Made by a program: the position numbers and the translations under genes. Shown here piece after piece: positions 4,284 through 56,413 of a DNA stretch of 64,000 nucleotides. The stretch is from Salinicola tamaricis (GTDB lineage: Bacteria > Pseudomonadota > Gammaproteobacteria > Pseudomonadales > Halomonadaceae), in the NCBI RefSeq assembly GCF_003006155.1, contig NZ_CP023559.1, positions 1,612,001-1,676,000 of the forward strand, written 5' to 3'. Under the pieces are notes generated by a model. The model had not been told where the DNA came from, did not search any database, and saw only the letters and a program-made list of their open reading frames with translations. The stretch's first letter is position 1. Each line of letters starts with the position of its first letter.

Positions 4284-4342
4284 TTCTCACAAGCGCTTGT
4301 GTTCGAAAGCGCTTGTTTTCAAAAGCTGAAAGACGCATACGG

Positions 4343-4484: not shown

Positions 4485-4503
4485 ATGTGTCGAACGAACC
4501 GTC

Positions 4504-4840: not shown

Positions 4841-4984
4841 TAGGGTCTATACGAAAAATCGGCGAGCGAAGGCAAGACAAGGCAAAAATCGACGAAAAAG
4901 CGGAGTTTACGGGTGTAAATGAGCATTTTGAGCCGATTTTTAACGCCGTATTGCCGAGCGCAGGCAGTTTTCGTATAGACCCTA
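4841..4984. repeat. MITE-like element, copy 1
   Basis: A 144-bp unit bounded by perfect terminal inverted repeats (TAGGGTCTATACGAAAA and its complement at 4968-4984). The interior holds AAGGCAAGACAAGGCAAAAA and a GTTTACGGGTGTAAATGAGC segment. It carries no coding capacity for a transposase. A second, inverted and diverged copy lies at 58528-58670. It occupies the region just upstream of hexR and may contribute to its transcript leader. Short reading frames across it are artefacts. Confidence 0.8.
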
Positions 4985-5035
4985 GCCACCCCACGCTAAA
5001 GCGAGACCGATAATGCTGCGATACGAGGGACGGGC

Positions 5036-5902: not shown

Positions 5903-6141
5903 CGCGCACGCCTTCTCGGTTCTGCGCTCTCGGCGCCGCGCTCTCGAATTCCGCTCTCTCTGCCTTCTCTCTTCTTTCTCCCCGGCGCTTGCCGGGGCGT
6001 GCCCGTTCTGTCTATTCGTTCGCCCAAGACACGTTAGCCCAAGGCACGTTCGCCCAGTATTCGTTCGCTCATGCGCGCTCTGTCGGCGCGGCTGCTGGCG
6101 CTGACACGCCGCCACCGCGAGGCAAAGTCAGACCATGAATA
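5903..6141. other. Gap between hexR and the imu operon
   Basis: Contains a pyrimidine-rich tract (about 5912-5980), a hairpin CCCCGGC-GCTT-GCCGGGG (5980-5997) that could terminate hexR, and degenerate direct repeats of a CGTTCGCCCAA / CGTTAGCCCAA / CGTTCGCCCAG type (about 6018-6056). No gene is supported. Confidence 0.5.
5980..5997 (+). terminator. Hairpin downstream of hexR
   Basis: 7-bp GC stem with a GCTT loop, about 80 bases beyond the hexR stop, followed by a moderately T-rich stretch. Confidence 0.4.
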
Positions 6142-6157
6142 CTGTATATATAGACAG
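6142..6157. promoter_or_regulatory. LexA (SOS) box of the imuA-imuB-dnaE2 operon
   Basis: CTGT-ATATATAG-ACAG matches the gammaproteobacterial LexA consensus CTGT-N8-ACAG exactly. The symmetry extends outwards (AATACTGT...ACAGTATT, 6139-6162 region). It lies upstream of the damage-inducible mutagenesis cassette, a classic LexA target, so SOS induction is well supported. Confidence 0.9.
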
Positions 6158-6303
6158 TATTCGGGGTTGTGAGCGACACTATCCCCTTCGAAGGCCAGGG
6201 GGATGTCGCCCATGTCTGAGTGTCATCGTCAGCTTTGCCGCCACGTTGCCGCGAGCTGCCGCGTCCGGTGTGCCTGGCGTTGCCATTGCCGGAGCCGTGG
6301 GCG

Positions 6304-6928
6304 GTGAGCGCGCTCGATCGGCTGCTCGATAGCCGCGTCGTCTGGCGTGCCCAGGAGAGCGCCGCCGAGGCACCCGCCAGCGCGGTCGCCAGCGGCCACA
6401 AGGCGCTGGATGCGGCACTGCCGGCGGGCGGCTGGCCGCGCGGGGCGATCAGTGAGCTGCTCTGTAGCGGTGCCGGCAGCGGGGAGCTCGCGCTGCTGTG
6501 GCCGCTGCTGGCACGTCTGACCCGCGAGCAGCGGCCGGTGGTGCTGGTGGCGCCGCCGGCGCTGCCCTATCCGGCGGCCTGGCGGCGCGCCGGTGTCGAA
6601 CTCGACCACTGCCACTGGCTCGACGTGAGCGGGCGCGAAGCGCTCTGGGCCACCGAGCAGTGCCTGCGGGCCGGCTGCTGTGCGGCGGTGCTGGCGTGGC
6701 TGCCGCAGGCCGATGCGCGCGCCTGCGTCGGCTGCAGGTGGCCGCGGCGAGTGGCGATACCCTGGGCTTCGTGCATCGGCCGCTGGCGCGCGCCAGCGAG
6801 GCCTCGCCAGCGGCGCTACGGTTGCGCCTCCACCCGCCGGCACCGGGCGCACGCCGGCGCTGGAAGTGCTCAAGTGTCGCGGCGGGTGGCCGCGCGCTAC
6901 GCACATCGCCCTCGAAGCGGGGGCGTGA
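6304..6928 (+). CDS. imuA: ImuA, RecA/SulA-like translesion accessory protein (frameshifted)
   Basis: First gene of the SOS mutasome. ImuA is a RecA-like protein that works with ImuB and DnaE2 in error-prone repair. The readable N-terminal part contains SGHKALDAALPAGGWPRGAI, typical of ImuA, then SELLC and a RecA-like core. The frame shifts at about 6730 and again near 6845. The last segment (ALEVLKCRGGWPRATHIALE) ends at the TGA 6926-6928. I chose GTG 6304 because it begins SALDRLLDSRVVWR, which matches the usual ImuA N-terminus. An in-frame GTG at 6220 would add 28 residues. The imuB start follows 4 bases after the stop. Confidence 0.75.
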
Positions 6929-38276: not shown

Positions 38277-39173
38277 ATGACATCGCTACCGTCGCTCAAT
38301 GCGCTGCGCGCCTTCGATGCCGTGGCCCGGCTGGGCAGCGTCACCGCCGCCGCCGAGGCGCTGCATGTCACCCACGGCGCGGTCAGCCGCCAACTGCGCA
38401 CGCTGGAAGCCCACTTCGGCACGCCGCTGTTCGACAAGTCAGGGCGCGGGCTGGTGCTCACCGCCCATGGTCGCCTGCTGCAGCCGTCGATTCGTGAGGC
38501 CTTCTCCCGGCTCGGCGAGGGCTGCGCCGCCCTCGCGCGCGAGCTCGAAAGCCAGCCCTTCACCCTGGCCTGCCCCGGCAGCCTGCTGGCGCGCTGGTTG
38601 ATCCCGCGGCTCGACCGGCTCAACGCGGATCTACCCGCGCTGCGCCTGCGCGTGGTCTCCAGCGAAGGGGAGCTCGATCCGCGGCGCGAGGATATCGACG
38701 CCACGCTGCGCTTTGCCGCACCGCCGTGGCCGGCGGATATCGCGGTGTTTCCGCTCCAGGCAGAGCGGATCGTCGCCGTGGCCACGCCAGCGGTGTGGGC
38801 GCACACGCCTCACGCGACGGCTGATGCGATGCTGGGAGCGGCCACGCTGCTGGATACCGCCTCACGGCCGCAGGCGTGGCCGCAGTGGGCCGCGGCAATG
38901 GGCGTCGAGCCGGCGACGCTGGCTGCGGCACGTCAGCGCGGGCGCACCTTCGAGCATCTCTACTATCTGCTGGAGGCGGCGCTGGCGGGGCTGGGGGTGG
39001 CCATCGCCCCCGAGCTGCTGGTGGCGAACGATCTGACCCAGGGGCGGCTGGTGGCACCCTGGCCGGCGCTGGAGACCAACGCCGCACTAGGGCTGTGGCT
39101 CGCCCCGGGGCGCGAGCGGCGGCGCGGCGAGCACCTGGCGGCATGGCTGGTGCGGGAGCTGGCAGCCGGCTGA
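38277..39173 (+). CDS. trpI: LysR-family regulator, TrpI type
   Basis: A 298-residue LysR regulator. N-terminal winged helix-turn-helix ([20 protein letters not shown], then [18 protein letters not shown]) and a C-terminal effector domain (about 92-295). The GcvA/TrpI-like HTH and the position divergent from trpBA point to TrpI, which in Pseudomonas activates trpBA with indole-3-glycerol phosphate. ATG 38277 is 54 bases from the intergenic palindrome. Function as TrpI rests on context and family, not on recognisable effector residues. Confidence 0.8.
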
Positions 39174-39201
39174 CGCGCCGGGTGGCGCTTGTCGACGGCG
39201 C

Positions 39202-40104
39202 TCAGCGTGGCCGACGTGCCTGCTCGCGGGCCTGCATGCGCTCCATGGCGCGGCGGTAGGAGCCGTTGCGCACCGCCCAGCGCATCACCGGGGCGATGGT
39301 GCGGATGCCGCCACGCACCGCGCGGCGCTCCGCCGTGGCGAGCTCGAGACTCAGCAGAGTGGCGGCCCAGGGCGGCAGCAGGTCGATGCCGGCGCGCATG
39401 AACAGCGCTCCCACCGGTTTGACCAGTGGGCTCGGCGGCAGCGCGTGAAGCAGAATCTCGGTCACCTCGCGGGTACGTGCATCGCACACCAGATAGCGGC
39501 GCTGATGCTGCAGGTAGGCGTCGATGGCGGCGCGGCTGGTGGGCACCTGGGTCGCGCCCAGCGCCTCGGCCACGCGGGCGGTCTCGGCGAAGTAGCGATC
39601 CTGCTCGGCCAGCGCCAGGCGCGGATTGCGGTAGCGCAGGTGGGCGGCGAGAAAGCGGCTCATCTCGGCCACATGGACCCAGGTGAGCAGCGCCGGGTCG
39701 CTGGCGGCATAGGCGCGGCCATCCGCGCTCGTTCCCTCTACCCCGGCATGCACCCGGCGCACCCGCTCGAGCACGCGCTCGGCGTCGTCCCGGGAGCCGA
39801 AGGTGGTCACCGCGATGAACTGGCTGGTGCGGCGCAGGCGGCCGATCATGTCGTGGCGGAAGTTGGAGTGATCCCACACCCCGGCCAGCGCCAACGGGTG
39901 CAGCATCTGCAGCAGCAGGGCGCTGATGCCGCCGCACATCATCGAGGTGAAGTCGCCGTGCACCCGCCAGGCCACGGTGTCGGGGCCGAACAGCCCCGGG
40001 TCGCCCTTGGGCTGGGTGTAGTCGACCCCGCCCAGGGTGCGCCCGGTCAGATGGCTGATGCGCTTTTCGATGGCGTCGCGCAGAGGCGTGAACGGCGCGC
40101 TCAT
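39202..40104 (-). CDS. MpaB-like oxygenase-family protein (DUF2236)
   Basis: A 300-residue cytosolic protein of the MpaB/rubber-oxygenase (DUF2236) family. Motifs: GDPGLFGPDTVAWRVHGDF, LLLQMLHPLALAGVWDHSNF, TTFGSRDDAERVLERVRRVH, ALLTWVHVAEMSRFLAAHL. In studied members histidines of this type bind heme b. Substrate unknown. Its ATG (40104) overlaps the stop of the upstream DUF4105 gene by four bases (ATGA), so the two are translationally coupled. Confidence 0.82.
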   Translation of the reverse strand: MSAPFTPLRDAIEKRISHLTGRTLGGVDYTQPKGDPGLFGPDTVAWRVHGDFTSMMCGGISALLLQMLHPLALAGVWDHSNFRHDMIGRLRRTSQFIAVTTFGSRDDAERVLERVRRVHAGVEGTSADGRAYAASDPALLTWVHVAEMSRFLAAHLRYRNPRLALAEQDRYFAETARVAEALGATQVPTSRAAIDAYLQHQRRYLVCDARTREVTEILLHALPPSPLVKPVGALFMRAGIDLLPPWAATLLSLELATAERRAVRGGIRTIAPVMRWAVRNGSYRRAMERMQAREQARRPR

Positions 40105-41245
40105 GGGGCTCGCTCGATGTCGTCGTCGGTGGGTGGCGTGGCGCTCGGCACGCCGGCGCGGATGGCCTTCGAGAAGGCCAGGCTGCCCTCAGTGTAGGGC
40201 ACCGCCTGGGCGCGCGGATTGATATAGCCGCGCTGACGCAGCGTTTCCAGCGGTACGCCCTGGGCCAGGCCGCCGACATCATGGACATAGCCGGGCAGAT
40301 AGCCGGAGAGGATCAGCCGCGGGTCGCGTGGCAGGCCGTCGACGATCCGGGCGACCATGTCGAAGACGATGGTGGTGCAGTTGCTGGTCAGGGTGTTGTA
40401 GAACGCGGGCTCTGCGTGCAGCCGCTCGGCCTCGTCGAGATAGGCCAGGAACAGCTCGCGCCGGGCCTGCGGGGTCAGCCTCACGCTGTAGAGATAGACG
40501 TCTTCGCCGCGGACATTGCTGCGCAGGCGCAGGATGTCGTTCTCGTCGGCGGCGATCAGGTTGAGCTCGAACTGCTTGAAGAAACCGCCGGCGATCGAGA
40601 ACGCCTCGTTTCGCTCGCGGCGGATCTCCACCGAGAAGGTGAGATGGCGGCCATCGTCGAAGCCGAAGCTGACCAGGGTGTGGGCGATCGCCGGACCCAT
40701 CCAGTAGGAGACGATCATGTCGACGCTCGACAGTTGCGCGAGATCGTAATCGCGGCTCTCCCAACGCACTCGGGCGAGATCCGGGGTGAGCCACTCGAAG
40801 TCGCGCACGTTGTTCAGGTGCACCCGGTCGCCGTGGCGCTCGACCACCAGCTGGCGCGCCACGTCCGGTGCCCAGTCGCGGTCGTTGCGGGGTGTCAGTT
40901 GCTGCCACCAGACGACCACGACCAGCAGCGCCAGGGCGAAGGCGAGGCGGGTGGCGAGACTCGCACGCTGCAGGCCGCGGTGTGGGGGCTGGCGAGCCGC
41001 GTTGCCCTGCGGCCGATAGCGGCGCCAGGCCGGGCGAGCAGGGCGGCGAGGCCGAGTGTCACCCACAGGGCGATGACCGCCAGCACCAGCGGACGCGGCC
41101 CCGACAGGGCGAAGTGCAGCGCCAGGGTGCCCCAGGCGATGACCAGCGCCAGCGCCAGCGCGCGCAGGAGATGACCGACGCCGCGCAGCAGCCGGCGCGT
41201 GCGGGAGGCGGGGGCAGTCGAATGGCGAGAGGGCTGTGCTGGCAT
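40101..41245 (-). CDS. DUF4105-domain membrane protein (one frameshift)
   Basis: About 380 residues. ATG 41245 begins MPAQPSRHSTAPASRTRRLL. Two or three N-terminal hydrophobic segments (LRALALALVIAWGTLAL, LAVIALWVTLGLAALL and, after the frame change, LAFALALLVVVVWW) precede a DUF4105 domain (residues about 130-340). The domain includes SVDMIVSYWMGPAIAHTLVS, ISAGGFF-like and the catalytic-type NTLTSNCTTIVFDMVARI. The frame changes at about 41025. DUF4105 is related to Lnb lipoprotein N-acyltransferases, whose catalytic Cys sits in such a motif, so a periplasmic acyl-transfer or hydrolase role is possible. The partner downstream is the MpaB-like gene. Confidence 0.72.
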
Positions 41246-41442
41246 GCGGGGCTTGCGTTCCTGTTCTGGGGCCGCCCGGCGCGGCGGGCGCACCACGATG
41301 GTGCCGGAGTCCCGGTGTGGAGGGAAGCGCGGGGCGTTGCCGAGGGTGGGGCAAGAGGCGTTATACTAAAGTCTAATCTCGGCCTGACCGATGCCCCGGC
41401 AGGCTATCGTGTCATCATCACCCTCCTGCTGGAGCCGCCGCA

Positions 41443-43654
41443 ATCTCCGACTCGCTCTCCCACTCCCTGCGTCGCCTGTGGACCCTCGACAAGTTCGCCT
41501 ACAGCCTGCGCGTGTTCGTGGCCTTCAGCGGCGCCATGGCGCTGAGCTGGCAGCAGGACCAGATCGGGCTCGCCATCCCGCTGTTCCTGGGCATCATCGC
41601 CAGCGCCCTGGCCGAGACCGACGATAGCTGGGAGGGACGGGTCAGAGCGCTACTGGTGACCCTGGGGTGCTTCTTCGTCGCCTCGCTCAGCGTCGAGATA
41701 CTGTTTCCGTGGCCGTGGCTGTTCGCACCGGGCCTGGCGCTCTCGGCGTTCGTCCTGATCATGCTCGGTGCGGTGGAGCAGCGCTACGCCACTATCGCTT
41801 CGGCGACCCTGATTCTCTCGGTCTACTCGATGATCAATATCGAGCAGCAGGCGGCACCAGCGAGATGTGTGGCGCCAGCCGCTGCTGCTGGTGGCAGGTG
41901 CCGCGTGGTACGGGGTCATCTCGGTGGTGTGGGTGCGCTCTTCTCGCGCCAGCCGGTGAAGCAGAGCATGGCCAGCTCTACCGTGAGCTGGGCACCTACC
42001 TGATCATCAAGGCGACCCTGTTCGAGCCGCTGCGTGGGCTCGATGTGGAGGCGCGCCGGTCGAGCTGGCGCGCCAGAACGGGCGCGTGGTGAGCGCGCTC
42101 AATCAAGCCAAGAGATGATCTTCCGGCGTCTCGAAGGCCAGCGCACCAGCCGCAAGCTCAATCGCTATCTGCGACTCTACTTCATTGCTCAGGATATCCA
42201 TGAGCGCGTCAGCGCCTCGCACTACCCTTATTCGGCGCTGGCCGAGACCTTCTTTCATCACGACGTGCTGTTCCGCTGCCAGCGTCTGCTCGACCAGCAG
42301 GGGCGGGCGTGCAAGCGGCTGGCCAAGGCGCTGCTGCTGCGCCAGCCGTTCGATCACGGCTTGAGCGAGCAGGCGCTGGAGGACCTGCGCGCCTCGATCG
42401 TCTATCTGCGTGCCCAGCGCAACCCCGCCTGGACCCCGCTGCTGCGCTCGCTGCAGGCGCTGGGACGCAATCTGGCGACGCTGGAGGATCAGCTCTCACG
42501 CGCCCACAACCCCGACATGGTCGCCGACCAGCAGGATGCCAGCCTGTTCAACCGCTCGCCGCGCAGTCTCAAGGACGCCTGGGAGCGGGTGCGCCTCAAC
42601 CTGACCCCGGGTTCGCCGCTGTTTCGCCACGCCACGCCCTGCGGCTCTCCACCGCGCTGTTGGTGGGCTACGGCGTGCTGCACCTGGTCCATCCCACCCA
42701 GGGGTTCTGGATCCTGCTCACCACGCTGTTCGTGTGCCGGCCCAATTTCGGCGCCACCCGGCGCTTTCTGTATCAGCGTATCGTCGGCACCGTACTCGGG
42801 CTGGTGGCCGGCTGGGCGCTGATCAGTCTGTTCACCGACCCGCTGATGCAGTCGCTGATCGCGATCGCCGCCGGGTGGTGTTCTTCGCCAATCGCGAGAA
42901 GCACTATGTGATCGCCACCGCCGCCATCACCACCCTGGTGCTGGCGAGTTTCAACCAGGTCGGCGACGGCTTCGATCTGATCCTGCCGCGGCTGTTCGAT
43001 ACCCTGATCGGCGCGCTGATCTCGGGGCTGGCGGTATTCTTGATCCTGCCCGACTGGCAGGGACGGCGGCTGCACAAGGTGGCTTCGGCGGCGCTCGCCA
43101 ACAGCACTGCCTATCTGCGCGAGATCATCCACCAGTACGAGAGCGGCAAGCAGGACGACCTCGCCTATCGGCTGGCACGGCGCAACGCCCACAACGCCGA
43201 CGCCGCGCTCTCCACCGTGCTCTCCAACATGCTGCAGGAGCCGGGCCACTACCGGAAGAAGGATGCCGACGAGGGCTTCCGCTTCCTGGTCGCCTCGCAC
43301 ACCCTGCTGGGTTACCTCTCGGCGCTAGGGGCCCACCGTGGCAGCGTCAGCGCCAGCGCGCAGGATGCCGAGCTCTACGTCGCCGCGCGCACCCTGGCGG
43401 ATCGCTTCGACGCGCTGGCGGCGCGGCTGGCCGCGCGTGAGACGCCCCCCGACCCCAAGGCCGTGCAGGCCGAGCTGACGGCGGTGTTCGAGCGCGAGCC
43501 GGCCAGCGCCCAGGACGATGGCGACGACGAGCGCCGCCTGATCCAGGGCCAGCTGTTGCACATCGCGCGCCAGCTGACACCGCTGCACGACGCCGCCGAA
43601 CGTCTGATAGCACGGCCCGCCGAGAGCACCCCGGGCGCCTCCACCCCGGCCTGA
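41443..43654 (+). CDS. yccS: YccS/FUSC-family inner-membrane protein (multiply frameshifted, start uncertain)
   Basis: Aromatic-acid exporter-like (FUSC) membrane protein, about 720 residues. Block order: SLRRLWTLDKFAYSLRVF, first hydrophobic bundle (IGLAIPLFLGIIASALAETD to YATIASATLILSVYSMINIE), central cytosolic part (HERVSASHYPYSALAETFFH), second bundle (VGYGVLHLVHPTQGFWILLT, VVFFANREKHYVIATAAITT), and a soluble C-terminus to PGASTPA. Shifts lie near 41860, 41985, 42055, 42110, 42640 and 42872. The start is unclear: the reading frame opens at ATC 41443 after GGAGC without ATG/GTG/TTG, so a lost base there is likely. Transport substrate unknown. Confidence 0.75.
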
Positions 43655-43818
43655 GGCCACGCCGCGCGCTCATCATGAGCATCCGCGGGTTTTACATCAT
43701 CTCTCTCGCCGGCGCCCTCGGCTGGATCCGCTCCTGGCCTTGGACCTGGACTAACGTCGAGTGCGCCGGCGTTTGACATCCGACGGCGCTGGGCCGAGCA
43801 TGAGCCATTCTTGAGCAT
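43655..43818. other. Leader region of the DeoR-otnKC operon
   Basis: Contains a 33-codon open frame (43674-43775) rich in Trp (GWIRSWPWTWTN), without a good ribosome-binding site, and a TTGACA (43773-43778) that may be a -35 element. A weak -10 (GAGCAT, 43796-43801) lies 17 bases on. The DeoR operator follows. Confidence 0.3.
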
Positions 43819-43839
43819 TTTTGTGAATTTTTCACAAAA
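43819..43839. promoter_or_regulatory. Palindromic operator upstream of the DeoR-type gene
   Basis: TTTTGTGAA-TTT-TTCACAAAA, a perfect 9-bp dyad, 28 bases before the regulator start. DeoR-family repressors usually bind such sites near their own promoter, so autoregulation of this operon is likely. Confidence 0.75.
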
Positions 43840-43866
43840 TGCATCATCCGCTCTCGAGGGTGACTC

Positions 43867-44694
43867 GTGATTCCCAGCCAGCGCCGCCAGCAGCTGCTCG
43901 ACCTGCTCGATACCCACAGCGTGCTCGGTATCGCCGAGCTCGCCACCCATCTGGCGGTCTCGCACATGACCGTGCGCCGGGATATCCAGCGTCTGGAGCA
44001 GGCCGGACAGGTGCTTTCGGTCAGCGGCGGCGTGCGCCGGATCGCACCCCTTCATCGCGAGCCCGCCTGGCCGCTCAAGGCCGCCACCAACATCGCGGCC
44101 AAGCGCGCCATCGCCCGCCATGCCGCCTCGCTGGTCAAGCCGGGGCAGACCATCTACCTGGATGCCGGGACCACCCTCTACGAGCTGGCGGCGCTACTCA
44201 CCGGCCACCACGAACTTTGCGTGATCACCAATAGCTTCCAGGTCAGCGCGCTGCTCGCCGACTACCCGCAGATCGAGCTGCACCACGCCGGCGGCCGGGT
44301 CGATCCCGACAATCACGCCACCGTGGGGCCGGCGGTGGCGGCCTATCTGAGCGGCGTCAATCTGGATCTGGCCTTCTTCAGCTCGTCCTCGTGGCATCTA
44401 GAGCGCGGCCTGACCACGCCGGACGAGGCCAAGCTGGTGGTCAAGCAGCAGCTGTTGCACAGCGCCGCGCGGCGGGTGCTGCTCGCCGACAGCGCCAAGT
44501 ACGGCCGCTTCGGACGCTTTCGCGCCTGCTCGTTGGAGGCGTTCGATCTCATCGTCACCGACGATGCGCTGCCGTCGCCGGCGCGCCAAGCGCTGGCCGA
44601 GCGCGGCATCGCGCTGAGCTGCGTGCCCGTCACCGCGCCCGCCGCCGCCGAAGGCGCTGGCCACTCTCACCCCGACCTGCTTCTCAACCGCTAG
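43867..44694 (+). CDS. DeoR-family transcriptional regulator
   Basis: A 275-residue regulator. N-terminal DeoR helix-turn-helix (MIPSQRRQQLLDLLDTHSVL, then HLAVSHMTVRRDIQRLEQAG) and a C-terminal sugar-phosphate-sensing domain (about 90-250; IYLDAGTTLYELAALL and DSAKYGRFGR). GTG 43867 is the start. Placed directly before otnK and otnC (15 bases), it probably represses them until a phosphorylated four-carbon sugar acid intermediate accumulates, binding the palindrome at 43819-43839. A HsdR-like or GlpR-like alternative is less likely given the neighbours. Confidence 0.85.
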   Translation: MIPSQRRQQLLDLLDTHSVLGIAELATHLAVSHMTVRRDIQRLEQAGQVLSVSGGVRRIAPLHREPAWPLKAATNIAAKRAIARHAASLVKPGQTIYLDAGTTLYELAALLTGHHELCVITNSFQVSALLADYPQIELHHAGGRVDPDNHATVGPAVAAYLSGVNLDLAFFSSSSWHLERGLTTPDEAKLVVKQQLLHSAARRVLLADSAKYGRFGRFRACSLEAFDLIVTDDALPSPARQALAERGIALSCVPVTAPAAAEGAGHSHPDLLLNR

Positions 44695-44709
44695 CCCAGG
44701 AGCCCCACG

Positions 44710-45966
44710 ATGCCTCTGATTGGCTGTATCGCCGACGATTTCACCGGCGGCACCGACCTCGCCAACAATCTGGTCAAGAGCGGGTTTCGTACCCGCCAGG
44801 TCATCGGCGTGCCCGATAGCGATAGCTCAAACGAGCCGGTGGACGCCGTCGTGGTCGCGCTGAAGTCGCGCAGCATCCCTGCCGCGGACGCCGTCTCCCA
44901 GTCGTTGGCGGCGCTCGAGTGGCTGCGCCGCCAGGGCTGCGAGAAGTTCTACTTCAAGTACTGCTCCACCTTCGACTCTACCCCGGAAGGCAATATCGGG
45001 CCGGTGGCCGAGGCGCTGATGACTGCGCTGGGGGTCGACGGCACGCTGTTCTGCCCGGCCTTCCCGGCCACCGGGCGCACGGTCTATCAGGGGCATCTGT
45101 TCGTGGGTGACCGCCTGCTCAACGACAGCGGCATGGAGCGGCATCCGCTCAACCCGATGCGCGACGCCGACCTGGTGCGCTGGCTGGGGCAGCAGACCCA
45201 GGCCGCCACCGGCCTGGTCGACCACGCCTGCCTGAGCCGCGGCGAGGTGGCCACGCGTGAACGCATCGATCAACTGATCGCCGAGGGGCGGCCGCTGATC
45301 GTCACTGACACCCTGGACGATGCCCAGCTCACCACCCTGGCCCGCGCCAGTGCCCATCTGCCGCTGGTCACCGGCGGCTCCGGGCTGGCGCTCGGCCTCG
45401 GCGCGCTCTACCAGCCGGCGGTCAGCGACCCCGGCCAGCTGCCGCCGGCCCAGGGCAGTGCGGTGATCCTGGCCGGTAGCGCCTCGCGCCGCACCCGCGA
45501 GCAGATCGAGCACGCGAGTACGCGCCTGCCCACCTACACCCTCGATCCGCAGCGCCTGGCAGACGCCTTCGACGCCACCCTCGAGGCGGTCATGGCCTGG
45601 GCCACGCCGCAGCTCGGCGAGACGCCGCTGCTGATCCACAGCGACACCCGGCCCGAGGCGGTCGAGGCGGCTCAGGCGCAGCTCGGGGTCGAGGCCGCCG
45701 GGGCGCTGATCGAGCGCGCCCTGGCGACCCTGGCCGAGCGCCTGCTCGCCCAGGGCGTGCGCCAGTGGATCGTCGCCGGCGGCGAGACCTCCGGGGCGAT
45801 CGTGCAGGCGCTGGGGATCGCAGCGCTGCGCATCGGCCCCGAGATCGCCCCGGGGGTTCCCTGGACCCACGCCGCCACCACCGAGGGCGATATCCATCTG
45901 GCGCTGAAGTCAGGCAACTTCGGCGCTCCCGAGATGTTCACCAGCGCCTGGGAGATCATTCGATGA
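44710..45966 (+). CDS. otnK: 3-oxo-tetronate kinase (OtnK, DUF1537 family)
   Basis: A 418-residue cytosolic four-carbon acid sugar kinase. N-terminal domain with CIADDFTGGTDLANNLVKSG and KFYFKYCSTFDSTPEGNIGP (sugar-acid site), C-terminal nucleotide domain with LAGSASRRTREQI and VAGGETSGAIVQAL. It phosphorylates 3-oxo-tetronate formed from threonate or erythronate. Its TGA overlaps the ATG of the decarboxylase gene. The oxidising dehydrogenase (ltnD/denD) and OtnI isomerase are not seen in the window. Confidence 0.87.
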   Translation: MPLIGCIADDFTGGTDLANNLVKSGFRTRQVIGVPDSDSSNEPVDAVVVALKSRSIPAADAVSQSLAALEWLRRQGCEKFYFKYCSTFDSTPEGNIGPVAEALMTALGVDGTLFCPAFPATGRTVYQGHLFVGDRLLNDSGMERHPLNPMRDADLVRWLGQQTQAATGLVDHACLSRGEVATRERIDQLIAEGRPLIVTDTLDDAQLTTLARASAHLPLVTGGSGLALGLGALYQPAVSDPGQLPPAQGSAVILAGSASRRTREQIEHASTRLPTYTLDPQRLADAFDATLEAVMAWATPQLGETPLLIHSDTRPEAVEAAQAQLGVEAAGALIERALATLAERLLAQGVRQWIVAGGETSGAIVQALGIAALRIGPEIAPGVPWTHAATTEGDIHLALKSGNFGAPEMFTSAWEIIR

Positions 45967-46622
45967 GCGACGCCACCACCGAACATCAGTTACGCCAGCG
46001 CATCGCCACTCTGGGCCAGCGTCTCTACGCCCGCGGCCTGAGTCCGGGGACCAGCGGCAATATCAGCGTGCGTCTCGACGAGCAAAGCTGGCTGTGCACG
46101 CCGACCAACTCCTGCATGGGCGAACTCGAGCCGGAGGCGATCAGCCGGCTCGACTGGGAGGGCAACCATCTCGGCGGCGAACCGCCGAGCAAGGAGTCCT
46201 TCTTCCATCTGGCCTACTACCGCCATCGGCCGGCGGCGCAGGCGATCGTCCATCTGCACTCGAGCTACTCCAGCGCGGTGGCCTGTCTCGACGATCTCGA
46301 CCCGCACAACGCGCTGCCACCGATCACCCCCTACTTCGTGATGCGCATCGGCAACCTGCCGCTGCTGCCGTACCGCCGCCCCGGCGATGCGCGGCTGGGC
46401 GACGACATCGCCCGCTACGCCTCCAAGCACGCCGCCGTGCTGCTGGCCAATCACGGCCCGGTGGTGACCGGCAAGACGCTCGACGCCACGGTCAGCGCCG
46501 CCGAGGAGCTGGAGGAAACCGCCAAGCTCTACCTGCTGCTGCGCGACAAGCCCTACCGCGAACTCACCCGCTCACAGATCGAGGAGCTCAAGGAGGTGTT
46601 CGGCGCCGAGTGGGAGAGCTGA
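45963..46622 (+). CDS. otnC: 3-oxo-tetronate 4-phosphate decarboxylase (OtnC, class II aldolase family)
   Basis: A 219-residue class II aldolase/adducin-fold enzyme. Metal-binding features: AIVHLHSSYSSAV (two His), LLANHGPVVTG (third His), and SPGTSGNISVRL with the phosphate-binding region. With OtnK it yields dihydroxyacetone phosphate from 3-oxo-tetronate 4-phosphate. The start (ATG 45963) overlaps the otnK stop as ATGA. A fuculose-phosphate-type aldolase is an alternative from sequence alone; the neighbour makes OtnC the better call. Confidence 0.85.
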   Translation: MSDATTEHQLRQRIATLGQRLYARGLSPGTSGNISVRLDEQSWLCTPTNSCMGELEPEAISRLDWEGNHLGGEPPSKESFFHLAYYRHRPAAQAIVHLHSSYSSAVACLDDLDPHNALPPITPYFVMRIGNLPLLPYRRPGDARLGDDIARYASKHAAVLLANHGPVVTGKTLDATVSAAEELEETAKLYLLLRDKPYRELTRSQIEELKEVFGAEWES

Positions 46623-46690
46623 GCAGGAGAAGTAGAAGAGGGGAAGGACATGCCTGCGCCCAACGGGCGCAGGCGATTGGTGGCACCCGT

Positions 46691-47740
46691 CTACGACGAA
46701 AAATCGGTGATCACCGTGGCCCCCACACCCTGGAACGAATCCATCGCCATCAGCGCCGCCGGCGCCTCGGCCAGGCCAATACGCCGACCGACCAGCCGCG
46801 CCGGGTCGAGCCGGCCATGGCGAACCATGTCGAGCATGGCGCCGTAGCGGTGAGCCTGCATGCCGTGGCTGCCCAGAATCTCCAGCTCCTCGGCGATCAC
46901 CCGGTGCATGGGCAGCGGCGGCGACTGCTGATCCCCCGCCATCAGCCCCACCTGCACATGCTTGCCCCGGGTGCGCAGGCTCAGGATCGAGTTCTGGCAG
47001 GTGAGCCGGCTGCCCAGCGCGTCCAGCGAGACATGGGCACCGCCCTGGCTCAGTCCGCGGACCGCTTCGACGACATCCGCACACTGCGTGGCATTCAGCG
47101 TCGCCGTGGCGCCGAGTTCCCGCGCCAGGCGCAGCTTGGCGTCGTCGATATCCACCGCTATCACCTGTGCGCCCAGCGCGCTGGCGATCATGATCGCCGA
47201 GAGGCCGACCCCGCCGCAGCCGTAGACGCAGACCCACTGCCCGCCGCTAACCCGGCCTTGATCGACCACCGCGCGGAAGGCGGTGGCGAAACGGCAGCCG
47301 AGGCCTGCGGCGGTGGCGAAGTCCATGCTCTCGGGCAGTGCGACCAGGTTGAGATCGGCCTGCTGCAGGCTGGTGTACTCGGCGTAGGAGCCCCACTGGG
47401 TGAAACCGGGCTGCACCTGGTTGTGGCACACCTGCTGGTGGCCGCTGCGGCACTCGTGGCAGGCGCCGCAACCGCTGACGAAGGGCACGGTGACCCGCGC
47501 GCCGGGCTGCCAGCGGGTCACCTCCTTGCCCACCGCGACGATAGTGCCGGCCAGCTCGTGTCCGGGCACGTGGGGCAGCACGATGTCGCTGTCGTGCCCC
47601 ATCCAGGCGTGCCAGTCGCTGCGGCACAGCCCCGATGCCTCTACCCGCACCACCACCACACCATGAGGCTCAGGAGAGGGATCGGGCACGGTCTGGATGC
47701 TGGGAGGTGTCTGGAAGCTTTCGAAGACCACGGCTTTCAT
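46691..47740 (-). CDS. Zinc-dependent alcohol dehydrogenase
   Basis: A 349-residue medium-chain dehydrogenase. Catalytic zinc residues are Cys39 in [10 protein letters not shown] and His61-Glu62 in GHELAG. Structural zinc cysteines are 91, 94, 97 and 105 ([17 protein letters not shown]). The NAD-binding fold has [19 protein letters not shown] and VDIDD. Substrate unknown. Convergent with otnC, so a role in four-carbon acid oxidation is possible but unsupported by orientation. It is divergent from an Lrp/AsnC-type gene, which is the likelier regulator. Confidence 0.88.
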
Positions 47741-47823
47741 GGCGATGACTCGTACGCTGGAGAGTGGGAGAGACGCGGCGCGAACAATGGCCGACCCTGT
47801 GAGACAGGCTACCGCGGATGGCC

Positions 47824-47844
47824 GAAATAGCTTTGCGTTATTTC
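47824..47844. promoter_or_regulatory. Inverted repeat between the alcohol dehydrogenase and Lrp-type genes
   Basis: GAAATA-9 bases-TATTTC, in the divergent region (starts 47740 and 47909). AT-rich dyads of this kind are typical of Lrp/AsnC-type operators. It overlaps the space where both promoters should lie. Confidence 0.5.
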
Positions 47845-47908
47845 CCCCTACCGCAGCCAGGTGGCAAGCTTGTTCTATCGAATCGCCAGAATAGAGAAGG
47901 ATCTTCCC

Positions 47909-48373
47909 TTGAAGCCGCTGGATGACATCAACCTGCGTCTGCTGGATCTGTTGCAGCAGGATGGCCGCATGACCAACGCCCGGCTGGCCGAAGCTCTGGC
48001 GCTGAGCGAGACGCCGTGCTGGCGACGGCTCAAGCGCCTGGAAGAAGAGAAGCTGATCACCGGCTATCAGGCCAACCTGGATCGCAAGCGGCTGGGGCTG
48101 GGGGTGCTGGCCTTCGTCCAACTCAACTGCTCGGAGCACCACGCCGGCTCGGTGGCGGCGTTCGAGCGGATCATTCACGCCAGCCCCAACATCCTCGCCT
48201 GCCACAACACCACCGGCGACGACGACTTCCTGCTGATCATCGTGGCCAAGGACCTGGACGACTACAGCCAGTTCGTGGAGCGCGAGCTGCGGCGGCTGCC
48301 GGGGGTGACCAATATCCGCTCCAGCCTGTCGCTGCGCGAAGTGAAGTCGACCAACCGGCTGCCGCTGGGGTGA
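47909..48373 (+). CDS. Lrp/AsnC-family transcriptional regulator
   Basis: A 154-residue regulator with N-terminal helix-turn-helix ([40 protein letters not shown]) and a C-terminal RAM ligand-binding domain (about 70-150; [20 protein letters not shown]). TTG 47909 is preferred because GAAGGA lies 7 bases upstream and [11 protein letters not shown] is the usual opening. A GTG at 47861 would add 16 residues. It probably regulates itself and the divergent Zn-alcohol dehydrogenase. The ligand is unknown. Confidence 0.85.
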
Positions 48374-48651
48374 GAGGCCCGCGCCGCCGCCGCGTTGGAC
48401 GCCTCACACCTGCCCATAGCCGCCTAGCCAGCGGCGGGTCAGAAGGTCCTGCCTAGCGTGGTGGGCTTGGCTATTCTCGTCGCTGGCATCATCTGCTGCC
48501 TTGAAGCGTTAAGGCGATCTTTGGGTCGATATCAGGCTCTGGGGGTGTCTCTCTTCCGTTTTGAAGATGCGATCAATAGCACTGGAGTGAAACGACGAGC
48601 TTCAATCAGGGCGATGTTGGTGGATTATCCTTGGCGTCGGCATGGGTTGCG
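48374..48651. other. Gap between the Lrp-type gene and the WG-type protein gene
   Basis: From about 48470 base composition becomes visibly less GC-rich. A 74-codon open frame (48458-48682, GTG start, hydrophobic opening) has no good ribosome-binding site and runs into the 3' end of the opposite gene. I do not count it as a gene. Nothing else is recognised. Confidence 0.4.
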
Positions 48652-51180
48652 TCATTTGTCGTCTCCGCAATCCAGCGGATAGCAGCGGCAAGCTCTCCGA
48701 GATATTCCGGTCAGGCGCAATCGGTCACCGCTCATGGCGAATAGCGCATAGGGATAGGCTTGACGCTCGAAGATGCCTTCGCTGGGTAATGAGTAGTCGA
48801 GACCTGCCGGGTGGTCATCACCTGCATTGATGGCGTCTTCTAGCGCTGGCAGGCGCAGATACCAGACTTGTTGGCACTTGTTCTGGTACTGCGATTGGGT
48901 TTCAGGAAACATCCCCCCGTAGCCTGCCGGTTCGGCGTGCTCGAATGTGGCAAGCAGCGTTTCGATGTCCGGAGTATTCGGGGAGTCGAGCTGGCCTGCA
49001 GATTTCATGAGACCGCGTGCGACATTGTGTGGTGCACGGGTTTCCATATCGATACTGGAGCGCATGATCCGCGAGAAGTCGGCATCGTCGATCCAGTTGT
49101 CATTCTCTTTGAACGCCTTCTGCAGTGATGCGATATCGCGGGCAAAGCGTTGAAGCCAGTTGTCATAGAGTGCCGGGTCCATACCGAGCGAGTCGCTGGC
49201 TGCAGTCGCACAGTGATCGGGCACCTCTGGCTCCGGGCCGCGCTCGACCCAATCGGTGGGAATGCCTCTTGCCGCGCATGCCGCACAGTGCAGCGAACCG
49301 TCTTTGCCACGCGCGAAGTGCAGACGCTCGTCTGACTCAATCAACGCACAGCTGGCGTCGTTGTATTGGGGCGATATCAGCAGGATGTCAAAGCCTCCAT
49401 CGCTGGGGCAAACTGGCAACGAGCCGTTTAGCGCTTGGTCCATTCCCTTGAAAGCGTTGAAGAAGGCATAGGCTTTTTCGTCGCTTGAGAGTTGCAGGCT
49501 GGGATAGACGAGTTCACGCAAATTCCCGTCACTCACGCCCTTCACGACGGCTTCGGCATTCGTGTAGTCCTTGGGCAAGTAGCGGGCAGTGATGGTCGGC
49601 TGATATTGCTGGGCGCTAAATTGCCCGTCATAGGCGCCTCTCTCTAGTGCTTCATCTGTAGAGACATCGGCGGATGAGAGCTGCCAGTTAGCGGCCGCCT
49701 CGTCGTAAGTCAGTAGTGCGCCTCGCAAGCCCTCGGCGTCGACGATGGCGATGCGGACGCTGGACGCTTGCGTATCGGTGGCGATTCGCCTGATGGCACC
49801 GGCCTCGACCGGAATCAGCGTTTTGCCGGACTGTGTGATCAAGCCATGATGGTCGGCCTTGACGACATCGAAGAGTGCTCGCCGATAGTCATCTTCGAAG
49901 ACATTGACCGCATCGAATGCCGTCTCCACTGGACACTCGCCCGTGAGCAGGCTGCATATACCGGTTTTGCCGTCACGGATGACACGATACATCTGGTCTG
50001 CATTCGATAGTCGGCGAGCCGAATCGAAATCCGCCGGCAGGATCGTGTCGCCTTTGGTATCGATGCTGCCGAAGTGGTGATCACGTCGCGTATAGAAGAA
50101 GTGCTGGGTTGGATCGCCCTCCCAGCGCTTGACAGTGATGAGATCCAGCCCATCCCACTCGGCGGGAATGATCTCGCGGCCGTCGATATCGGCGACGCCG
50201 ACCTTGCCGCCGCCACCATCCGGCCAGGCATCAGGCGCAACCCGCAGATAGATGTCTGCTGGCTCTCCCGCGTTCAACGGGTAGATCAATGCATAGGTCG
50301 GCGCGATGCGTTCGTGACCGTCGGCACCGATTAGCCCCATCTTGTCGCCAAGCTTCACGATCGCTGCATCGCTGCCTTCGATAGGATCGATTTCGTCGTA
50401 ACGATCACCGGGCAGTATGCTCTCGCCAGTAGCCGGATCGAGTACGCGCTGGCCAACCACGAGCAGCTTTGGCTCGCGCCAGATCTTGACGTCGGTCTCC
50501 CGCTCGACGCCCGCGACGATATCGCCACGGGCGTTATACACGGTGGTGCGGCGATGATCACGATCTGGCTCGAAGGTCGAGGCTAGCGCTAGCCCGTTCC
50601 ATATTTGGATGTCGTCATAATCCATCGGCGCGACCATGTCGCCGTTGCGAGGATTGATCACACCCTTTTTATTGCCACGCTCGGCGATCCATAAGTCGTC
50701 GCTGGAGAGGAGGCCCGGCAGGCGATTGTACTCAATGGGGGTACGCTGCACTCCGTCCAGCCCGACAACACCGTAGTGGCCCTCTCGCTCCACGACGAAC
50801 GCGTCGCTGTCGCGTTTTATGTCGACGCCGTCGTACACCGGTTCGAGTATCCAGCGTCCCTTGGACGACAGAATGCCTTTCTTGGCCGTGTAGGGAGTGT
50901 CACTGCCGTCACCTGTGTAGACCAGCACCCAGTCGTTGATCCGGTTCGTTGCCAGTACGTGATCGGCGATGATCTCGCCAGTCTCGGTGTCGAGGATCTG
51001 TGCGTGATCGCCCAGACTCCTGACTGTCATGGCATCGTTGTCGTACAGATAGTGAGGAGAATCGGCATCTGCGTAGGCCGTCGATAGAAGTATCGATCCG
51101 ACGGCCAGTAACAGCACAACGAGAGATGAGTGGGGGAGAGGGCTGCCGAGGGACCGCGCTGTCTGGAGAATCTGACGCAT
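48652..51180 (-). CDS. Large exported protein with WG-type repeats, function unknown
   Basis: About 842 residues from ATG 51180 (MRQILQTARSLGSPLPHSSL). A signal peptide (LVVLLLAVGSILLSTAYA) precedes the mature start around DADSPHYLYD. Residues about 50-470 hold WG-like beta repeats, seen as recurring phrases of the GxxxxxGxxxIxPxYDxI type, for example HYGVVGLDGVQRTPIEYNRL, GLIGADGHERIAPTYALIYP, KVGVADIDGREIIPAEWDGL and GSIDTKGDTILPADFDSA. The C-terminal 350 residues are helical and polar with a cysteine cluster (HCAACAARG) and end CRCYPLDCGDDK. Likely periplasmic or outer-membrane-associated. GC is visibly lower than in neighbours, suggesting transfer. It is not recognised beyond this. Confidence 0.7.
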   Translation of the reverse strand: MRQILQTARSLGSPLPHSSLVVLLLAVGSILLSTAYADADSPHYLYDNDAMTVRSLGDHAQILDTETGEIIADHVLATNRINDWVLVYTGDGSDTPYTAKKGILSSKGRWILEPVYDGVDIKRDSDAFVVEREGHYGVVGLDGVQRTPIEYNRLPGLLSSDDLWIAERGNKKGVINPRNGDMVAPMDYDDIQIWNGLALASTFEPDRDHRRTTVYNARGDIVAGVERETDVKIWREPKLLVVGQRVLDPATGESILPGDRYDEIDPIEGSDAAIVKLGDKMGLIGADGHERIAPTYALIYPLNAGEPADIYLRVAPDAWPDGGGGKVGVADIDGREIIPAEWDGLDLITVKRWEGDPTQHFFYTRRDHHFGSIDTKGDTILPADFDSARRLSNADQMYRVIRDGKTGICSLLTGECPVETAFDAVNVFEDDYRRALFDVVKADHHGLITQSGKTLIPVEAGAIRRIATDTQASSVRIAIVDAEGLRGALLTYDEAAANWQLSSADVSTDEALERGAYDGQFSAQQYQPTITARYLPKDYTNAEAVVKGVSDGNLRELVYPSLQLSSDEKAYAFFNAFKGMDQALNGSLPVCPSDGGFDILLISPQYNDASCALIESDERLHFARGKDGSLHCAACAARGIPTDWVERGPEPEVPDHCATAASDSLGMDPALYDNWLQRFARDIASLQKAFKENDNWIDDADFSRIMRSSIDMETRAPHNVARGLMKSAGQLDSPNTPDIETLLATFEHAEPAGYGGMFPETQSQYQNKCQQVWYLRLPALEDAINAGDDHPAGLDYSLPSEGIFERQAYPYALFAMSGDRLRLTGISRRACRCYPLDCGDDK

Positions 51181-51242
51181 AACAGAGATTGGCCGGTAGT
51201 GACATGTATGGGAGCAGTATAACGAGCGCACGATGCTCTGAC

Positions 51243-53325
51243 TTATACCTGCCCGTACCTGCCCGCCTCGTCGCCGAGCCAGCGCTGGATCAGCGCCGGG
51301 GCCACGTCAGGTGCCTCTTCGAGCAGTGCCGTCGCCAGCGCGGTGACGGTATCGAGCAGGTCGCGGTCGCGCTCCAGGTCGGCGATCTTCATCTGCGCCA
51401 GTCCGGTCTGGCGGGTGCCCAGTACTTCGCCGGGGCCGCGTAGTTCGAGGTCCTTTTCGGCGACCTTGAAGCCGTCGGTGGTGTCGCGCAGGATGCCCAG
51501 ACGCTCGCGAGAGTGGTGCGACAGCGGCGGGTGGTAGAGCAGCACGCAGTAGCTGTCGACGCGCCCGCGGCCGACCCGGCCCCGCAGCTGATGCAGCTGG
51601 GAGAGCCCCAGGCGCTCCGGGTTCTCGATGATCATCAGGCTGGCATTGCATTGGGCACGTCGACCCCCACCTCGATCACCGTGGTCGCCACCAGCAGGTC
51701 GAGTTCGCCGCACTTGAAGGCGTCCATCACCTCGCCCTTCTCGGCGGCCTTCATGCGCCCGTGGACCAGCCCGATCTGGAGTGCCGGCAGCGCTTCGGTC
51801 AGGTGTCGCGGGTGACCTCGGCGGCCTGGCAGGTGAGCGCTTCCGACTCCTCGATCAGCGTGCAGACCCAGTAGGCCTGGCGACCCTCGGCGCAGGCGCT
51901 GCGGATGCGCTCGATCACCTCCGGCCGGCGCTCGTCGGGCACCGCCACGGTATGCACCGGGGTGCGCCCCGGCGGCAGTTCGTCGATCACCGAGAGATCG
52001 AGGTCGGCGTAAGCGCTCATTGCCAGGGTGCGCGGGATCGGCGTGGCGGTCATGATCAGCTGATGCGGGGTCAGGCCGCCGTTCTCGCCCTTCTGGCGCA
52101 GCGCCAGGCGCTGGTGGACGCCGAAGCGGTGCTGCTCGTCGATCACCGCCAGCCCCAGGCGCTGGAAGCTGACGTCGTCCTGGAACAGCGCATGGGTGCC
52201 CACCACCACCTGGGCGCGGCCATCGGCGATGGCCGCCTTGGTGTCGCCGCGCGCCTTGCCCTTGAGCTTGCCGGCGAGCCAGCCCACCTCGATGCCCAGC
52301 GGCTCGAGCCAGGTGCGGAACTGGCGGAAGTGCTGCTCGGCGAGAATCTCCGTCGGCGCCATCACCGCCGCCTGGCAGCCGCCGGCGACCGCGGCCAGCA
52401 CCGCCATCGCGGCGACCACGGTCTTGCCCGAGCCGACGTCGCCCTGGACGAGACGCAGCATCGGCACCTCGCGCTCCAAGTCGCGCCCGATCTCGTCGAG
52501 CACGCGGCGCTGGGCCTGGGTCAGCGAGAACGGTAGCTGGATCAGAAAGCGCGCCTGCAGATGGCCGCTGCCGGCGAGCTTGGGGGCGCCGTCGGTCTGA
52601 ATGCGCAGGCGCACCTGGCGCAGGCTCAACTGATGCGCCAGCAGCTCCTCCAGCGCCAGCCGGCGCTGGGCCGGATGGCGCCCGGCGGCGAGCACCTCCT
52701 GCGGGGCGTCCGGCGGCGGCTCGTGCAGATAGCGCAGCGCTTCGAGCAGGCCGGGCAGGCGAAAGCGCTGGCGCAGCGTCGCGGGGATCCACTCCGGCAG
52801 CGCGTCCGGCGCCTCTGCCAGGCGCTTCAGTGCCTGCTGGATCAGCGCCCGCAGGCGCGGCTGGGCGAGCCCCTCGGTGGCCGGGTAGATAGGTGTCAGG
52901 TGCTCGTCCACCGGCGGCGCTTCGCTCTGCACCAGACGATATTCGGGGTGGTAGATCTCGAGCCCGGTGCTACCGGCGCGGGCTTCGCCGAAGCAGCGCA
53001 CCTGGACACCCTTGACGAACTGCTGCTGCTGGGCCGGCGAGAAGTGGAAGAAGCGCAGGCTGAGAATGCCCGAGCCATCCTTGAGCCGCACCAGCAGGCT
53101 GCGCCGGCGCCCGCGAATCACCTCGGCGGCGCTCACCTCACCCTCGACCACCGCCTCGGTGCCGGCGCGCAGGGTGCCGATCGGGGTGATCCGGGTACGA
53201 TCCTGATAGCGCAGGGGCAGATGGAACAGCAGATCGGCGATCTGGACGATCCGCAGCCGAGCCAGCTTGAGCGCGAGCGCTTCGCCGACGCCGGCGAGTT
53301 CGGTGACCGGTGCGTCGAGGCTCAT
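51243..53325 (-). CDS. recG: ATP-dependent DNA helicase RecG (frameshifted)
   Basis: Branch-migration helicase that rescues stalled forks and Holliday junctions. N-terminal wedge/OB domain (about 1-180; [15 protein letters not shown]), Walker A region in [24 protein letters not shown] box [10 protein letters not shown], motif [14 protein letters not shown], then [32 protein letters not shown], and motif [22 protein letters not shown]. Shifts lie at about 51803 (after AAEVTRDT) and about 51645. The length after repair is normal (about 690 residues). ATG 53325 overlaps the oxyR stop. recG-oxyR is the same pairing as in Pseudomonas. Confidence 0.93.
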
Positions 53326-54242
53326 GCCGCCTCGACGTCGCTACCGTGAACCTGATCGATCGCCTGGATCAGCGCATCGATCGCGCGCGGCCGCGGGAAG
53401 CTGGCGCGCCAGGCCAGGGCCACGCTGCGGGTGGGGGCGTCACCCTTGAACGGCCGGCTCTCGAGCAGGCCCCCCTCGTAGTGGCTGGTGCCGATGGCCA
53501 GCTTGGGCAGCACCGTGATGCCGAGCCCCGAGGCGACCATGTGGCGGATCGTTTCGAGCGAGCCACCCTCGGCGATCAGGGTGTTCTCGGGGTTGTTGAG
53601 CTGGGCGCTGATCGCCGGGCACGCCTCGAGAATCTGATCGCGGAAGCAGTGGCCCTCGCCGAGCAGCAGCAGGCGCTCCTTGAGCAGATCCTCCTTGTCG
53701 ATCGCGGCGCGCTCGGTCCACGGGTGGTCGGCCGGCAGCAGGATCTCGAATGGCTCCTGATACAGCGTCTTGGTGACCACGTCCGGCTCGTTGAACGGCA
53801 GTGCGACGAAGATCGCATCCAGCTCGCCGCTACGCAGCTTGCGCCGCAGCACGCCGGTGAAGCTCTCTTCGATGTACAACGGCATCTGCGGGGCGATGCG
53901 CGACAGCGCCGGAATCAGATGCGGGAACAGATAGGGGCCAATGGTGTAGATGGCGCCGATGCGCAGAGGGCTGATCAGCTGGTCCTTGCCCTCGCTGGCC
54001 ATCTCCTTGATCAGCGTCGCCTGTTCCAGCACGCGGTGGGCCTGCTCGACGATACGCTCGCCCAGCGGGGTCACCTGGACGGTGGACTTGGAGCGCTCGA
54101 ACAGCGCGATGCCCAGCTCCTCCTCGAGCTTCTTGACCGCCACCGACAGCGTCGGCTGCGAGACGAAGCAGCGCTCGGCAGCGCGACCGAAGTGACGCTC
54201 CTGCGCCAAGGTTACGATGTAACGGAGTTCTGTTAGAGTCAT
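53322..54242 (-). CDS. oxyR: OxyR peroxide-sensing LysR regulator
   Basis: A 306-residue LysR protein. N-terminal HTH (MTLTELRYIVTLAQERHFGR, AAERCFVSQPTLSVAVKKLE) and a C-terminal sensor. The redox pair is Cys199 in GEGHCFRDQ and Cys208 in ILEACPA, at exactly the positions of E. coli OxyR. The nearby conserved SGLGITVLPKLA is also present. Peroxide forms the Cys199-Cys208 disulfide and activates catalase and peroxidase genes. The gene overlaps recG by four bases, so both are likely co-expressed. It is divergent from the YeeZ-like gene. Confidence 0.95.
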   Translation of the reverse strand: MTLTELRYIVTLAQERHFGRAAERCFVSQPTLSVAVKKLEEELGIALFERSKSTVQVTPLGERIVEQAHRVLEQATLIKEMASEGKDQLISPLRIGAIYTIGPYLFPHLIPALSRIAPQMPLYIEESFTGVLRRKLRSGELDAIFVALPFNEPDVVTKTLYQEPFEILLPADHPWTERAAIDKEDLLKERLLLLGEGHCFRDQILEACPAISAQLNNPENTLIAEGGSLETIRHMVASGLGITVLPKLAIGTSHYEGGLLESRPFKGDAPTRSVALAWRASFPRPRAIDALIQAIDQVHGSDVEAA

Positions 54243-55448: not shown

Positions 55449-55569
55449 TGTCTAGACGAATAAGCGTCACACGACGTCGCCAGACTGTGTTCAACACTTC
55501 GGGGCCAGGACTTCGGTGCCAGGGATTCGTGGTTCCGAATCATGGCCGACACTTTCCGGGGCGAATCGT

Positions 55570-56413
55570 ATGACTGCCATCGTTAGCGTCGAACGGCTCG
55601 ACAAATCCTTCGGCACCCATGCGGCGCTGCGCGAGATCGGTTTCGAGATCCACGCCGGCGAGCTGGTCACGCTGATCGGGCCGTCGGGGTCGGGCAAGTC
55701 GACCCTGCTGCGTCACCTCATCGGCCTGAGCCGCGCCGACCGCCAGTCGCACAGCCATGTCCGGGTGCTGGATCGCGACGTGCAGCGCGGTGGGCGCCTG
55801 CTCGGGGCCAGCCGCGAACAGCGCCGTCGCTGCGGCTACATCTTCCAGCAGTTCAACCTTGCCGGGCCGGTTGAGCGTCATGACCAACGTGCTGGTCGGC
55901 CACCTGGGCGCGATGCCGCGCTGGCGCGCCTGACCGGCCGCTTCACCCAGCAGGAGCGGGACAATGCGCTACGGGCTCTCGAGCGGGTCGGCATCGTCGG
56001 GTTGGCTCAGCGCGCGCCAACACGCTGTCGGGTGTCAGATGCAGCGCGTCGCCATCGCCCGGGCGCTGGTGCAGGAGGCGGAGGTGATCTTCGCCGACGA
56101 GCCGATCGCGTCTCTCGACCCGCGCAGTGCCCGCGAGGTGATGGAGATCCTGCAGCGCATCAATCGCGAAGATGGCCGCACCATCGTCGTCACCCTGCAT
56201 CAGGTCGACGTCGCCCGTCGCTACTGTCGCCGGGCCATCGCCCTGAAGCAGGGGCGCCTCTACTACGACGGACCGATCGCCGGCCTCACCGACGCGCGCC
56301 TGCAGGCGCTGTATGAGCACGCCGGTCTCGACGAGCTCGAGTCCCGTCAGCCCGGTCACCGGATCGCGCCGCCGCTGCATGCGGTGGGCTGCCGGGCGGC
56401 GTACACGCCATGA
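55570..56413 (+). CDS. phnC: Phosphonate ABC transporter ATPase PhnC (frameshifted)
   Basis: Cytosolic ATP-binding subunit of the phosphonate importer. Walker [20 protein letters not shown]-loop FQQFNLAG, and Walker [21 protein letters not shown] with the H-loop in VVTLHQVD. The frame breaks at about 55873 (after FNLAG) and 56018, where the ABC signature LSGGQ should sit; the C-terminal half resumes at [15 protein letters not shown]. Start ATG 55570. The likely cause is sequence error. phnD follows 49 bases later. Confidence 0.85.

Follow-up and report, generated by a model that had tools for sequence, protein, structure and literature searches.

An apparently acquired gene behind recG in Salinicola tamaricis encodes a WG-repeat protein with two undescribed domains

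The interval between recG and an Lrp-type regulator gene in Salinicola tamaricis is occupied by one gene of apparently foreign origin, whose 842-residue product combines a signal-like start and a WG-repeat region with two domains that find no match in the family libraries searched. The stretch analysed, referred to here as the window, comprises 64,000 nucleotides of contig NZ_CP023559.1. We are highly confident of the anatomy of the gene and of its acquisition. The product probably serves in the cell envelope, in binding or protection, and our best explanation taken whole, in which a single foreign gene behind recG specifies an exported binding or neutralising protein, is put forward tentatively.

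The gene lies at 48652–51180 on the reverse strand, begins with ATG and reads through 842 codons with no internal stop, confirming the original prediction of a large protein encoded alone between the two neighbouring genes. Judged by eye, residues 1–37 (51070–51180, reverse) have the shape of a signal peptide, with a cleavage site after AYA, immediately before DADS, and without a lipobox; the proposal that the protein is secreted is kept in the form that this shape, its one line of support, allows. The C-terminal end of the protein is CRCYPLDCGDDK, and the Cys cluster and terminal CRCYPLDC noted previously are real. Eleven Cys residues are present, at positions 409, 416, 591, 611, 632, 635, 657, 769, 831, 833 and 838, nine of them beyond residue 590, and the Cys-rich tail occupies residues 831–838 (48667–48690, reverse). 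The layout, as predicted from the translation, is a signal, the WG region, a mid domain and a C-terminal domain. A 74-residue ORF with a hydrophobic start (48458–48682, forward) lies inside the insert, where it overlaps the 3′ end of the WG gene; it has no Pfam match and is not accepted as a gene. A promoter scan found none for the WG gene, and terminator-like sites numbered 2, against 2.0 expected.

The WG-repeat region extends over residues 44–505 approximately (49666–51051, reverse) and contains about 11 units by eye. The Pfam family WG_beta_rep (PF14903) matches the whole protein with an E-value of 1.3e-16 and 60.7 bits, the cut-off being 25.6, and matches residues 26–504 alone with an E-value of 2.6e-18; four stretches of the region are picked out at E up to 5. 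An HMM of our own, for which two other WG proteins supplied 24 repeats, scores the protein at 43.2 bits, compared with 2.8 at most for 200 shuffles of residues 41–505, and marks eight stretches, of which five score positive. By both measures the beta-repeat phrases first described as WG-like are true WG repeats. As in other PF14903 proteins, the region exceeds the curated cut-off and comprises several tandem units, and annotated WG-repeat proteins from plasmids of Cetobacterium and Bernardetia show local similarity to it. The protein differs in that its repeats are degenerate and are accompanied by ∼340 residues making up two undescribed domains, to which the Cetobacterium and Bernardetia proteins have no BLASTP match. 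The matches in G648 and G649 are likewise to the WG region only. PHROGs give E-values of 0.17 and 0.32 at best for the repeats, and a PF14903 search across the genus, which missed the 842-residue protein itself, returned zero matches and is thus uninformative on WG genes in other genomes. The structure prediction that had been proposed was run twice with AlphaFold2, first from the single sequence (mean pLDDT 38.9) and then again (pLDDT 35.4); strands appear in the WG region of the first model, and the fold of neither is usable.

The mid domain (residues 520–650; 49231–49623, reverse) ends in CxAC....IPxxWV and is common to a protein of genome G423, whereas the C-terminal domain (residues 671–827; 48700–49170, reverse) is found as a stand-alone protein in Eleftheria terrae (WP_301260563.1). 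Alignment of the two mid domains scores 92, whereas 2000 shuffles average 25.9 and reach 51 at most, and alignment of the two C-terminal domains scores 132 (2000 shuffles, mean 29.8, maximum 52); the crossed comparisons, at 27 and 34, fall inside the shuffle range. Neither domain matches any family in the libraries searched. No Pfam family is found for the C-terminal domain up to E 5, PHROGs give nothing for residues 505–842 up to E 5, and the full-length protein has no NCBIfam match up to E 1 and no PADLOC match up to E 5. Comparison with the PDB by sequence gives a best E-value of 0.27 for the two domains, from the C-terminal one, and nothing for the whole protein at E up to 1. On these alignments the two regions look like new domain families, each with two sequences.

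The G423 protein, from the same class, has 451 residues (locus L004, 1486–2841) and matches residues 319–645 with a BLASTP E-value of 3e-10. It is collinear with the S. tamaricis protein, with a signal-like start (by eye), a WG region and the mid domain, but stops there, without the C-terminal domain, and its gene sits amid housekeeping genes. The Eleftheria protein, a hypothetical product of 210 residues encoded on a 784-kb plasmid record, also has a signal-like start; its residues 33–194 align to residues 672–827 with 28% identity, but the domain stands alone, with no WG match. The gene that begins 19 bases downstream encodes a product with a signal-like start and YD-like phrases (both by eye), for which an RHS_repeat match is sub-threshold (E 0.019). 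The statement that there is no characterised homologue holds insofar as no relative of known function was found, but the repeats pass the cut-off of a known Pfam family, and the shorter collinear relative in G423 and the lone C-terminal domain in Eleftheria make novelty without any homologue too strong a claim. Since the repeat region passes the PF14903 cut-off, novelty is confined to the domain combination and to the two C-terminal domains; proteins of this kind are known already, and the combination is new.

The C-terminal domain could also be read as catalytic, with its PAGxGGxFPE, WY and RxAYPxxLF motifs belonging to an envelope enzyme for which the WG region serves as a substrate platform. 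Its occurrence in Eleftheria alone, with its own signal-like start, and its retained blocks of Arg, Glu, Trp and Tyr are consistent with this, but the lack of a Pfam family and the weak best PDB match are not, and as the domain is known from two sequences only, conservation cannot separate an active site from a structural core. We regard an enzyme as unlikely.

A distribution search, which the original prediction had called for, found the 842-residue protein in one of 18 genomes of the genus and one of 275 of the family, in each case itself, with no match in the 17 and 274 others respectively. Residues 505–842 were sought in overlapping samples of the class (2 of 369 genomes; itself and G423), the order (2 of 293; itself and the rejected G759) and the phylum (6 of 398; itself, G423 and four weak matches). 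A mid-domain profile run over 274 class genomes recovered G423 alone, which supplies one of the profile's own two sequences. Further relatives were absent from genome contigs searched with the whole protein and with the C-domain alignment, from viral contigs, from phage records searched with residues 505–842 and from plasmid records searched with the insert DNA. Among weak matches to the C-terminal query, those in G759 and G1094 are rejected because the ORFs whose frames they share appear to encode a TonB receptor and an acetyltransferase, and that in G1183 as an Arg-rich frame overlapping another ORF; others occur in G1007, with four stops inside, and in G1230. Plasmid matches of the mid domain, with E-values of 0.03 to 0.9, were judged to be chance.

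The composition of the gene sets it apart from its surroundings, as had been noted for the segment as a whole. Its GC content is 58.7%, against 67.5% for the window, and its GC3 is 0.678, compared with 0.80–0.91 in six other named genes measured; by section GC3 ranges from 0.63 to 0.72, and the shift runs along the whole gene. The codon-usage comparison, made against 31 window genes that the analyst chose as likely coding, places it far from the local norm: its mean log codon probability is −1.268, whereas those genes average −0.815 (sd 0.078), giving a z of −5.84, and the lowest among them has −1.011.

Comparisons within the genus show where the gene lies and what replaces it in relatives. 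On the host side is the Lrp/AsnC-type regulator (47861–48373, forward), and on the other is a frame-broken recG (51243–53325, reverse), whose 3′ end forms the near edge of the insert. The recG gene was located in all 17 other genus genomes, and 4.9 to 9.1 kb of sequence from each was compared. In four of these (G016, G010, G006 and G005) Lrp lies behind recG. There is no inserted sequence between the two genes in G016 and G010, which thus present the empty site, and comparison with them defines an inserted segment of 48443–51242, nearly equal to the 48470–51242 marked originally. The other two, G006 and G005, carry a different insert of about 3.7 kb at the recG–Lrp site, between flanks that are about 94–96% identical; it contains LodA-type oxidase and flavoprotein genes (loci L033 and L034; identified by Pfam in G006 and by eye in G005). 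Repeated TGTAAGCC-type phrases are seen in both, directly behind recG and before this insert. In G003 (L041, about 832–6918) the genes behind recG are, in order, a Sel1-repeat gene (signal-like start, GC of 0.47), a 317-residue unknown gene and a 1103-residue VasX_N gene, a set that is a candidate effector–immunity module. In G002 a glycosyl hydrolase gene comes after recG, with a low-GC Sel1-repeat gene (0.46) beyond it. The remaining 11 genomes show other arrangements, with no Lrp match behind recG in the stretch compared. There are no tRNA genes in the window.

The far edge of the insert carries what appears to be a decayed second recG 3′ end. Read in the orientation of recG, positions 48404–48442 (reverse) encode LLTRRWLGGYGQV and a stop in frame, the counterpart of the 16-residue end and stop of recG itself. 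Searched by peptide pattern, 39001–53400 contains no other second recG end, and the 57 loci assessed yield just this one; it coincides with the point at which the empty-site sequence resumes. The similarity is clear at the peptide level and weak in DNA: the 22-base upstream half is equalled in 111 to 132 of 5000 random windows, a sample that may include recG, and in two DNA scans of the entire stretch downstream the top match to the recG end was at another position and did not exceed the controls, scoring 32 against a shuffle maximum of 34 in one, and 30 against a reverse-complement control of 33 in the other. It is the combination of frame, stop and position that argues for a relic. A second relic, clearer in DNA, is seen in G010 (L044), about 1.7 kb behind recG, beyond an Lrp/dehydrogenase block; it scores 41 where shuffles reach at most 32, and 52 where the reverse-complement controls of all loci go no higher than 44. 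This block may therefore also have entered at recG.

With the relic test flagged at a score of 36, and L131 excluded because no recG end was found there, a clear relic is absent from 16 of the 17 other genus loci and from all 39 loci assessed in other genera; the flagged candidates L048, L097 and L120 lie within the reverse-complement controls (up to 44) and are rejected, as is a general attachment site at recG. Relics at the far edges of two blocks, in the window and in G010, might have been expected if the recG 3′ end were the attachment site of a site-specific recombinase, with cargo accreting as it does at tRNA genes. The scarcity of relics in the other loci speaks against such a route, however, as do the inserts whose ORFs were read (window, L033, L034, L041 and L049), in which no recombinase was seen; in 48443–51242 none was recognised by eye among ORFs of 80 residues or more. 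The insert edges show one degenerate repeat but no clean direct repeats. A site-specific integrative element is thus not supported, and we consider one unlikely. One-sided homologous recombination, anchored in recG and with an illegitimate far end, fits the relics equally well, and by analogy may have been the route; PMC5361080 suggests this process for effector–immunity modules of the type VI secretion system (T6SS) in Vibrio. In titles and abstract openings from the open-access library searched we found no description of recG as an insertion hotspot. The site, with its empty form, its several kinds of cargo and its recG-like relic, offers a compact example of single-gene entry, and shows how individual genes may come to occupy a defined position although no mobile element is visible.

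We conclude that acquisition of the WG gene is well supported. Absence from relatives would by itself fit loss as well as gain, and vertical inheritance followed by loss in every relative could account for it; the codon usage, the lack of any match in the 274 other family genomes, the different inserts in relatives and the relic at the insert edge make this highly improbable. Nor do most relatives carry the gene at the same locus with a normal GC, the finding that the original prediction named as refuting transfer: none of the 17 has a match, and empty sites are present.

The signal-like start, the WG repeats and the cysteines together point to a binding protein of the envelope. We infer its periplasmic residence, disulphides, fold, binding and any part in immunity as follows. 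A single foreign gene would have entered directly behind recG, and its product, given the signal-like start, would be exported to the periplasm; there the WG beta-repeats could form a binding platform, with specificity conferred by the mid and C-terminal domains, which disulphides would probably hold. The protein would bind, neutralise or hold an envelope ligand, for example a lytic or membrane-active effector from a competitor. This function, that of a periplasmic WG protein of the orphan-immunity type, is the one we favour, as a possibility that is well short of probable.

The immunity element is a fair guess by analogy, made because relative G003 holds VasX-type T6SS effector and Sel1-repeat genes at the same site. 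T6SS-type effector genes are present in this genome and in the genus, where VasX_N matches are found in 13 of 18 genomes, two of them in this genome, one lying downstream of vgrG pieces. The separate signal-like protein that carries the C-terminal domain in Eleftheria counts for immunity, and the housekeeping surroundings of the G423 relative count against it. The neighbours of the WG gene are Lrp and recG, so that neither a cognate effector nor any other T6SS gene adjoins it, and no T6SS gene appears within 6 kb of two other WG proteins among the features listed in an incomplete gene table. The orphan immunity genes of Vibrio arrays described in PMC5361080 resemble the WG gene in being acquired and in that insertion has displaced the 3′ end of the gene upstream, which remains behind the insert; they differ in that here the upstream gene is recG, with no array and no effector. 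PMC8855297 reports on the 15 genes of highest significance in a Pseudomonas aeruginosa PA14 rsmA mutant: one encodes a putative WG-repeat lipoprotein and six belong to T6SSs, an observation that bears on regulation only.

Other cargo at the recG site, the LodA-type oxidase with its flavoprotein and the glycosyl hydrolase, is metabolic or carbohydrate-related, and the site is therefore not specific to competition genes. This cargo is in keeping with a general WG binding or adhesion protein of the periplasm or surface, for polysaccharide, envelope or metal, that has no role in competition. WG proteins examined elsewhere adjoin unrelated genes, and PMC8767351 reports the WG-repeat Pfam as retrieved only in 40% of commensal Acidovorax. 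Such a protein is a serious candidate, if again a tentative one, since no ligand-binding motif is recognised and the two C-terminal domains would be left unexplained. A bolder form of the protective hypothesis treats the mid and C-terminal domains as new exported neutralising families. They would be carried on repeat platforms or paired with them, the platform being WG here and perhaps the operon partner in Eleftheria, and such one-gene protection cassettes would be exchanged among these bacteria at the 3′ end of recG by recG-anchored recombination; we think this improbable. WG-repeat proteins seem little studied in the open-access literature, and here they are joined to two domains new to the libraries searched, one of which is found alone elsewhere; both domains are small, expressible units suited to testing.

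The frame of recG itself is broken: three close relatives have the gene as a single open frame, and compared with these it lacks 1 base and carries 5 extra bases; open frames in the 17 relatives encode 697–725 residues. The break is either an assembly error or a real loss. An ABC-transporter ATPase gene elsewhere in the window (55516–56413, forward; named by eye) also looks split, as does a vgrG elsewhere in the same genome (L080, 4311–7250), and genome completeness is 93%, compared with 96–100% in congeners; together these suggest that the assembly carries indel errors. As a check for a replaced recG 3′ end, the identity of the gene to three congeners was compared along its length; it drops only slightly in the last 300 bases.
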